NCBI GenBank assembly: GCA_013816805.1
Contig: JACDDS010000005.1
Location: 62,001 to 126,000 of the forward strand
Length of the DNA stretch: 64,000 bases
Origin: Chitinophagales bacterium
GTDB taxonomy: Bacteria; Bacteroidota; Bacteroidia; Chitinophagales; UBA10324
Reading direction: 5' to 3'
Part shown: piece after piece, positions 16,368 through 20,942 of the stretch
How positions within the stretch are numbered: the first letter of the stretch is position 1
How the letters are laid out: each line of letters begins with the position of its first letter
The notes under the pieces: model-generated
The model's input: the letters and a program-made list of their open reading frames with translations, nothing else
Told to the model about the DNA's origin: nothing
Database searches by the model: none
Made by a program: the position numbers and the translations under genes

Positions 16368-16862
16368 ATGAACCCTGATTATCTCAAACTGATAAATGCA
16401 GCTAAAAGCAAAAAAAAGGAGAATAAAAAATTTTTGAAAAGATTAAAACTCCGCCCTCCCCGTAACCTGGATGAGATCACTAATAACCTTCATGATCATG
16501 CCTTCGAACATATTGATTGCCTTAAGTGTGCAAACTGCTGTAAAACTACCGGTCCGCGTTTGGTAAACCGCGATATTGACCGGCTTGCAAACCATTTTCA
16601 CATACGGCCTTCCGAATTCACGGAAAAATTCCTGCGAACAGATGAAGACAGCGATTATGTTTTCAAAACAATGCCATGCCCTTTTTCTAAAGAAGATAAC
16701 TACTGCTCGGTATACGAAAATCGCCCCAATGCTTGTCAGCAATATCCTCACACCCAACAAAAAAATATCGTTCAAAAGCTGGGTATCACCTATTTAAACT
16801 CCATGATATGTCCCGCAGTTGCAGAGGTGATAGAAGGTCTTAAGGATATCTTTAATAATTAG
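16368..16862 (+). CDS. YkgJ-family cysteine cluster protein
   Basis: Putative zinc- or iron-binding protein of the YkgJ (CxxCxxCC) family; biochemical role unknown. It has the cluster HIDCLKCANCCKTTGPRL at about 48-65, then KTMPCPFSKEDNYCSVYENRPNACQQYP with the spaced Cys residues expected, and a last Cys in NSMICPAV. The first 45 residues are basic (KSKKKENKKFLKRLKLRPPR). The C-terminal stop overlaps the convergent Fpg/Nei-like gene by four bases. Confidence 0.85.
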   Translation: MNPDYLKLINAAKSKKKENKKFLKRLKLRPPRNLDEITNNLHDHAFEHIDCLKCANCCKTTGPRLVNRDIDRLANHFHIRPSEFTEKFLRTDEDSDYVFKTMPCPFSKEDNYCSVYENRPNACQQYPHTQQKNIVQKLGITYLNSMICPAVAEVIEGLKDIFNN

Positions 16863-17587
16863 TTATTTAAAACCTGACAATTGTTGCAAAAGAAACTGAG
16901 TCTTTTTACTTTTCCGGTGTGTTCCATGATCACGGGAATATTACATCGGGGGCATTTTTTTTTCTTATAGATCAGCCAGTGCTTTCGCAATTGGTAAACT
17001 TTTTTCCATTTATAAAAATTGAAGCTGTAGTTACGGGCTTCTTTTACTAACTCTTTTAATTTGGCACTTGATAGGCTTTTTACCAGGCTTTTAGGATGGA
17101 TTTTTATTCTAAATAAAACCTCATTTTTTATAATGTTACCAACTCCGGCAAAAATTTCCTGGTTAAGCAATACATCGCACACCATAATTTCCTCTAATCT
17201 TTTTAAGGATGCAATGGCTTTTTTTGGATTCCATGCATCCGACAGAACATCTGCTTCCCAGTCATAAACCTCGTTAATATCTTCATCTATAATTAAAACA
17301 GAGCAGGTATAAAAATTCAGCTCTCCTTTTTTGAATTGAAGAGATAGGCGAGCGGGCATTTCTTTTTTCTCATTTATCCGGTAGCTGCCAAACATCAGGA
17401 AATGAATACGAACTGAAAAATCTTTAAAACAAATAATAAAATGTTTGCCCCAGGTTTTAAAATCCAGAATTTTTTGATTAATCAATCTCTCTTTATCCGT
17501 TTTGGAGTTGCCTCCAATTTTTTCGATTTTTTTTCCGATAAATGATTGTACTTCTTCTTTTAAAATTATCAGCGATGGTCCTTCCAT
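16859..17587 (-). CDS. Fpg/Nei-like DNA glycosylase family protein lacking the N-terminal Pro
   Basis: Relative of formamidopyrimidine-DNA glycosylase and endonuclease VIII (base excision repair). Support comes from the N-terminal sheet with a TWGKHFIICF hairpin carrying the conserved Lys, the helix-two-turn-helix segment LLNQEIFAGVGNIIKNEVLFRIKIHP at about 145-172, and a C-terminal zinc finger CPRC...CNNC at about 213-238 with the finger Arg (KRLSFFC). Active enzymes begin M-P-E and use Pro as the nucleophile after Met removal; this one begins MEGPSL, so the Pro is absent. No in-frame alternative start restores it. It may be a variant glycosylase or a DNA-lesion binder. Confidence 0.82.
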   Translation of the reverse strand: MEGPSLIILKEEVQSFIGKKIEKIGGNSKTDKERLINQKILDFKTWGKHFIICFKDFSVRIHFLMFGSYRINEKKEMPARLSLQFKKGELNFYTCSVLIIDEDINEVYDWEADVLSDAWNPKKAIASLKRLEEIMVCDVLLNQEIFAGVGNIIKNEVLFRIKIHPKSLVKSLSSAKLKELVKEARNYSFNFYKWKKVYQLRKHWLIYKKKKCPRCNIPVIMEHTGKVKRLSFFCNNCQVLNN

Positions 17588-20291: not shown

Positions 20292-20942
20292 ATGTCTACA
20301 AAAGTAAACTGGGCAGAAGCGATCAAACCTCTTCTAAAAGAATATAAGGGAAAAAAACATCCGCTGGAGTATAAAAATATTTATCAGCTATTAGTAATGG
20401 TTGTTCTGTCTGCGCAAGATTCTGATAAGCATATAAATCAGCTTGCGCCTGCCATTTTTGATGCCTATCCCGATATGAAAGCTCTTTCAAAAGCCAGTGC
20501 TGATTCGCTCTATCCTTTAATCGGTAAAGTTCGGAATTACAATAATAAAACAAAGTGGTTACTGGAAATTGCTCAACAGCTGAAGAGTGATAAAGCCATT
20601 CCTCAAACTATGGAAGCCTTGACGGCTCTGCCAGGTATTGGAAGGAAGTCCGCAAACGTAATTATGCGCGAAGCAGGCGATCCGGCAGAAGGTATAATGG
20701 TAGATCTGCATGTGGTGAGGGTTGCCCCCCGGCTTGGCATTGCTACAGGCACTGATCCGAAGAAAATTGAAAAGCAAATTATGGAAGTATTGCCACAAAA
20801 AGACTGGGGAGAAGCAGGAATGGCGATCTCTTTTTTAGGCCGCGAAACATGCCGGCCCACCCATCCCCAGCATCATGAATGTGTAATGAAAAGTGTTTGC
20901 GCTTATTACAGGGAACATAAAAACGACGCTATCGAAGCATAG
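20292..20942 (+). CDS. nth: Endonuclease III-like DNA glycosylase with an unusual iron-sulfur loop
   Basis: Base excision repair glycosylase/AP lyase for oxidised pyrimidines. The helix-hairpin-helix LPGIGRKSANVI at 113-124 carries the catalytic Lys (K119), and VDLHVVRVAPRLG at 137-149 carries the catalytic Asp (D138). The C-terminal [4Fe-4S] loop normally has Cys-x6-Cys-x2-Cys-x5-Cys. Here it is C187-x6-H194-x2-C197-x5-C203, so the second ligand is His. Also the residue after D138 is Leu, where Thr is common. The length of 216 is normal. Either the cluster has a His ligand or this is a diverged paralog with altered cluster. It lies 57 bases after coaE. Confidence 0.85.
   Translation: MSTKVNWAEAIKPLLKEYKGKKHPLEYKNIYQLLVMVVLSAQDSDKHINQLAPAIFDAYPDMKALSKASADSLYPLIGKVRNYNNKTKWLLEIAQQLKSDKAIPQTMEALTALPGIGRKSANVIMREAGDPAEGIMVDLHVVRVAPRLGIATGTDPKKIEKQIMEVLPQKDWGEAGMAISFLGRETCRPTHPQHHECVMKSVCAYYREHKNDAIEA

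Follow-up and report, generated by a model that had tools for sequence, protein, structure and literature searches.

The window (the whole 64,000-nucleotide stretch of DNA analyzed here) carries an open reading frame for an endonuclease III-like glycosylase in which a histidine stands where the second cysteine of the iron-sulfur cluster normally sits. We refer to the gene as nth2, "Nth2" being a label coined in this analysis for the subfamily to which the His-bearing protein belongs. The gene starts 57 nt past the stop of coaE on the same strand, with yajC and a DUF1573 gene farther upstream, and its features are as follows.

20292..20942, plus strand: nth2, endonuclease III-like HhH-GPD glycosylase, 216 aa (open ORF, Pfam and NCBIfam matches, AlphaFold2 model)
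20532..20540, plus strand: residues 81-83, R-N-Y, a stretch unlike the four-Cys copy of the same genome (R-N-F in most relatives)
20610..20672, plus strand: helix-hairpin-helix region, residues ~107-127, LPGIGRKSANVI (PF00633 match at residues 101-125; model helices 107-111 and 118-127)
20646..20648, plus strand: codon AAG, catalytic Lys119 (read from the sequence)
20703..20705, plus strand: codon GAT, catalytic Asp138 (read from the sequence)
20850..20900, plus strand: cluster loop C187-x6-H194-x2-C197-x5-C203, CRPTHPQHHECVMKSVC (from the translation)
20850-20852, plus strand: codon TGC, C187 (read from the sequence)
20871..20873, plus strand: codon CAT, His194, in the place of the second cluster Cys (read from the sequence)
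20880-20882, plus strand: codon TGT, C197 (read from the sequence)
20898-20900, plus strand: codon TGC, C203 (read from the sequence)

Reading the codons of 20292-20942 on the plus strand bore out the loop that an earlier sequence-only reading had described, and the canonical motif C-x6-C-x2-C-x5-C is broken by the His at its second position. The corresponding residues of E. coli Nth are C187/C194/C197/C203, K120, and D138. Both the HhH-GPD domain (PF00730, 2.9e-17) and the helix-hairpin-helix (PF00633, 7.2e-7) were recognized by Pfam. The NCBIfam nth model (TIGR01083) gave Nth2 of the window 162.2 bits, below its equivalog cut-off of 211.7, and the sisters with Cys at position 194 (Cys-type) that we searched also fell under that cut-off. 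PF10576, the profile of the Fe-S loop, scored the window loop at 12.1 bits against a cut-off of 20.5. The AlphaFold2 model has a mean pLDDT of 94.6, and its structure matches were led by endonuclease III (EndoIII) entries 1orp, 1p59, and 1orn (Z ~24.5; for 1orp, Z 24.5 and rmsd 2.6 over 208 residues), with 2abk at Z 23.8 and rmsd 2.4 over 208. An EndoIII fold is thus predicted for Nth2 with high confidence.

Across 126 loci, some of which share one genome, no conserved neighbor gene of nth2 was found. In one genome only, an SRAP gene (PF02586; L006, 2185-2886) adjoins a Cys-type Nth2, and a comparison covering 185 loci gave no match to it in any other genome. A further glycosylase gene lies in the window at 16859-17587 on the minus strand; it is of the Fpg/Nei type (PF06831, PF01149), and its ORF begins Met-Glu-Gly-Pro. 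Members of the Fpg/Nei family have an N-terminal proline nucleophile, which this ORF apparently lacks.

The host genome does hold a second, canonical nth, for which the sequence-only reading had suggested looking. It lies on contig C3, keeps four Cys (CIARVPKCGICPIKDWC), scores 239.8 bits, above the NCBIfam cut-off, and shares 37% identity with Nth2; a third, weaker Nth match in the genome is of MutY size and MutY-like. The earlier suggestion that Nth2 may be a diverged paralog therefore stands, given this separate four-Cys nth and a score of 162.2 bits against the required 211.7. A paralog-based search covered 14 further genomes (15 handles, two from one genome), and in all 14 another nth-type match is present beside Nth2. 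Its loop has four Cys in nine of them (G214, G147, G170, G264, G131, G043, G005, G006, and G007, the match in the last being partial at 171.4 bits) and is of a different kind in the remaining five (G076, Chryseolinea serpens, Dawidia soli, Parachryseolinea silvisoli, and Chryseolinea sp. H1M3-3). Genes close to the four-Cys copy of the host were read at 27 loci (22 different genes, the others duplicates), and all have four Cys. A DNA pattern for the four-Cys nth loop found Cys in 244 and His in 1 of 395 class genomes, those without a match not being counted as lacking nth.

Position 194 was then compared across the subfamily, with Nth2 counted at E 1e-50 or better and weaker matches left out. 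Among 118 distinct Nth2 proteins, 88 have Cys there, 30 have His, and none has any other residue. C187, C197, C203, K119, and D138 are invariant (111/111 and 7/7, that is, all 118), which confirms the earlier remark that the catalytic Lys and Asp are kept. Clusterless glycosylases are recognized by the absence of the cluster cysteines, whereas three Cys are always kept in Nth2. The change from Cys to His (TGY to CAY) requires two base changes, and no intermediate residue occurs among the 118 proteins; both His codons are in use, with CAT in 16 and CAC in 12 of 28 His rows.

In a draw of 395 genomes from the class, all 37 Nth2 copies were read, giving 10 His (window included), 27 Cys, and no other residue. 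This draw is a less biased sample than our scan of named genomes, which returned 25 His and 55 Cys among the best 80 of at least 555 confirmed loci and for that reason over-represents the window's close relatives. Five of its His loci come from named strains, and His-type Nth2 occurs in Segetibacter aerophilus (Chitinophagaceae) and, within Cytophagales, in Chryseolinea serpens, Chryseolinea sp. H1M3-3, Parachryseolinea silvisoli, and Dawidia soli. A draw of 298 genomes from the order held 17 Nth2 copies in 16 genomes, 3 with His (window included) and 14 with Cys. Nth2 is present in 4 of 16 genomes of the window's own family. The proposal that His might be a lineage trait does not hold in any simple form, since the three other copies of that family have Cys and members of other families have His. 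One genome, G147, even holds two Nth2 copies (L039 and L046), one Cys-type and one His-type. Taken together, the strict choice of Cys or His, the use of both His codons, and the independently sequenced named strains confirm, at the level of sequence comparison, a loop composition beyond chance.

Other parts of the loop vary more. The first spacing is shortened to C-x5-C in 25 of 111 Nth2 proteins (L007, L035-L038, L041, and others), always of the Cys-type, and an x4 first spacing occurs in the His member L072. The shortened spacing suggests a site more tolerant of change than a rigid cluster might be. Residue 186 is Thr in 20 of 28 His-type and 11 of 69 Cys-type proteins; differences of this kind (residues 195, 200, 202, and others were also compared) are visible, but the supported independent pairs number only 3. 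Outside the loop, residues 81-83 are R in 107, N in 104, and F in 101 of the 111 proteins. Among viral contigs, 46 stretches matched a peptide pattern and none encoded a relative. In a plasmid collection, 199 records matched the window protein, all at less than 60% identity.

The history of the exchange was followed on a tree of 97 rows built without the loop. Cys and His interchange repeatedly on this tree: parsimony counts 11 changes (9-11 over bootstraps; shuffled mean 24.4), well-supported branches force 3 of them, and a topology that gathers all His rows into one clade is rejected (p-AU 0.0004). The exact number of changes is uncertain, given an unsettled bootstrap, open inner branches (34 of 91), and three long end branches, one of which leads to the His row L046. 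Cys is probably the ancestral state, since the four-Cys loop prevails among related Nth proteins. Nth2 of the window is 75-78% identical to copies from Chitinophagaceae and Cytophagales and 59-63% identical to those of its own family (L005-L007); being closer to the copies of other families, it hints at acquisition by horizontal transfer, for which tree support is weak. Recurrence in many related bacteria suggests that the ligand may have been exchanged in nature without giving up the metal site.

The same exchange was seen in a more canonical protein. The sole His match of the DNA pattern, in genome G846, belongs to an Nth of 214 aa (L193, 949-1593) that scores 245.2 bits, above the NCBIfam cut-off. 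Its loop, C-x6-H-x2-C-x5-C, has the same Cys-to-His change at 194 and passes PF10576 (24.8 bits against 20.5), and its gene adjoins an ORF read as RecA. G846 has just one other Nth match, a weak one (75.4 bits) of MutY size, and the His-loop protein thus appears to be the sole canonical-type Nth of that genome. It is a single case.

A second His-bearing Nth type (L165-L169; e.g., L167 1441-2073, minus strand) has the loop C-x4-H-x4-C-x2-C, e.g., CPARGHRWTECPIC, with the His about two residues ahead of 194 (~192) and the spacing to the last Cys shorter by three residues. It was found in the five genomes named above for a different nth loop, and all five proteins score above the NCBIfam nth cut-off; neither of the two scanned with PF10576 (L166 and L167) gave a match. 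Three PDB relatives aligned with L167 have the four-Cys type of loop at that place. A pattern allowing any residue at the His position matched in 13 of 80 class genomes, and His was present in 13 of 13. The plasmid collection held 204 records matching this type, again all below 60% identity. In the paralog-based search, no four-Cys Nth was found in the four Cytophagales genomes, each of which has two His-bearing Nth-type proteins. The His of this type may likewise be a ligand.

We consider it likely that nth2 encodes a catalytically intact EndoIII paralog with His194 taking the place of Cys194 as a cluster ligand, giving a natural 3Cys:1His [4Fe-4S] site. The sequence-only reading had proposed such a site, and the comparisons made here, in which the other Cys are invariant and 194 is only Cys or His, support it as far as sequences can. 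His194 is probably a ligand, because a position freed from the metal would be expected to drift to many residues and this one stays Cys or His. It would ligate iron and close the DNA-facing cluster loop, the cluster would be [4Fe-4S], and the loop would still present a surface that contacts DNA. Asp138 and Lys119 would excise the damaged base, with AP-lyase cleavage to follow, as in Nth. Nth2 would work beside another Nth-type enzyme and probably on a different set of lesions, since its helix-hairpin-helix segment, its Asp segment, and residues 81-83 are unlike those of the four-Cys copy. By analogy, the His ligand would shift (raise) the redox potential of the cluster, alter its stability, or both, perhaps in a pH-dependent manner. 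In Rieske centers, according to a 2024 review (PMC11138216), His ligands raise the potential and bring pH dependence.

A laboratory-made precedent exists in a related enzyme. PDB 1KQJ is an E. coli MutY that by exact sequence match has His at the equivalent residue, and it presumably stems from the work of Messick et al. 2002. PMC12000561 and PMC3584444 cite that paper under a title that announces, for MutY, an unusual histidinyl-coordinated [4Fe-4S] cluster. At the second Cys, a poor ligand would probably be costly, because of the four single Cys-to-Ser mutants of Deinococcus radiodurans EndoIII2 described in section 2.3 of PMC9268735, the first-Cys mutant alone could be overexpressed. This mutant, C199S, is unstable and its cluster degrades, a mixture of [3Fe-4S] and [4Fe-4S] is present, and its activity is comparable to that of the wild type (PMC9268735). 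Counting against a 3Cys:1His [4Fe-4S] site are the score of the window loop below the PF10576 cut-off, the shortened first spacing in 25 of 111 proteins, the zinc-like exchange of Cys and His, and the retained activity of C199S.

The main rival, which we regard as unlikely, is that a single Zn(II) is bound by three Cys and one His (or by four Cys), in the His-type proteins or throughout the Nth2 subfamily, as a purely structural site. Interchange of Cys and His and variable spacing are usual for zinc sites, and both are seen in Nth2. Zinc fingers of the Cys4 and Cys3His kinds occur in another glycosylase superfamily (PMC9266487). Against this, the predicted fold is that of EndoIII, whose solved relatives carry [4Fe-4S] (PMC9268735), and the Nth2 loop lies at the position of the Fe-S loop. 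The EndoIII Fe-S profile was matched at E <=1 by 47 of 69 aligned sequences (68 Nth2 and one four-Cys nth), and His at this position also occurs in the otherwise canonical Nth of G846 and in the engineered MutY.

It is also improbable, in our estimate, that His194 is no ligand at all, so that three Cys hold a cluster whose fourth iron is open or solvent-bound, or hold [3Fe-4S], or the cluster is lost and the fold kept. The mixed cluster and wild-type-like activity of EndoIII2 C199S (PMC9268735, as above) and the existence of a clusterless MutY structure (8UUC) speak for it; however, a site without a ligand should vary, and here His or Cys stands in 118 of 118 proteins, switching repeatedly, while the other three Cys never vary. 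The part of the sequence-only alternative that envisaged a lost cluster is disfavored for the same reason. A sequencing error at the codon, or a decaying pseudogene in one assembly, is refuted by the same His in many independent genomes (25 of the best 80 of at least 555 named-scan loci, five from named strains, and 9 of 36 other class-draw copies) and by the open frame and invariant catalytic residues; nothing was found in its favor, and we give it practically no weight.

If His194 is indeed a cluster ligand, Nth2 would be new as a DNA-glycosylase subfamily that naturally uses either Cys or His as its second cluster ligand. In the literature searched (titles and abstract openings, with many journals outside coverage) we found no report of a natural His-ligated EndoIII, which does not prove absence; the 2024 review gives the glycosylase cluster motif as four Cys (PMC11138216). 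Whether the [4Fe-4S] of base-excision glycosylases is structural or serves redox and DNA signaling is still disputed (PMC9266487, PMC9268735). Natural pairs of Cys-type and His-type proteins, such as the two forms in G147, leave the catalytic residues untouched and could be used to measure what the cluster does; if the redox-tuning reading is true, such sister pairs would let the part played by redox chemistry in the glycosylase cluster be studied on its own. More tentatively, and with considerable doubt, we suggest that Bacteroidota may keep EndoIII-type enzymes with different cluster potentials, and that Cys/His switching in the second enzyme may tune oxidation, pH response, or DNA-mediated signaling, with some lineages (the four Cytophagales genomes) seemingly having no four-Cys EndoIII. 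On the practical side, some Nth2-like proteins escape detection by Fe-S loop profiles and by the four-Cys rule.

Among known systems, Nth2 is most like EndoIII itself (E. coli 2ABK, Geobacillus 1ORN/1ORP/1P59), whose HhH-GPD fold it follows along almost its full length (Z 23.8-24.5) and with which it shares both catalytic residues (Lys and Asp), all but one of the four cluster Cys, and the position of the loop; it differs in having His in place of the second cluster Cys and in scoring below the NCBIfam nth cut-off. E. coli MutY His199 (1KQJ) has its His at the equivalent ligand position within the superfamily fold (Z 18.4), but that protein was engineered, whereas the swap in Nth2 is natural, recurrent, and accompanied by the Nth-type catalytic Lys. 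The C-x4-H-x4-C-x2-C type, from the same class, likewise combines three Cys and an invariant His with the catalytic Lys and Asp, yet its His lies at ~192 and it scores above the NCBIfam nth cut-off. Clusterless MutY (MutYX, 8UUC) is an HhH-GPD relative with a non-standard cluster region; it is clusterless by its title, while Nth2 keeps three Cys and only Cys or His at the fourth position. NEET proteins and IscR have 3Cys:1His cluster ligands, although these clusters are [2Fe-2S] (PMC11138216) and the proteins are not DNA glycosylases. EndoIII-1 and EndoIII-3 of D. radiodurans are, like Nth2, extra copies beside a main EndoIII, but their clusters are all-cysteinyl with the same redox properties, and their differences lie near the active site (PMC9268735).
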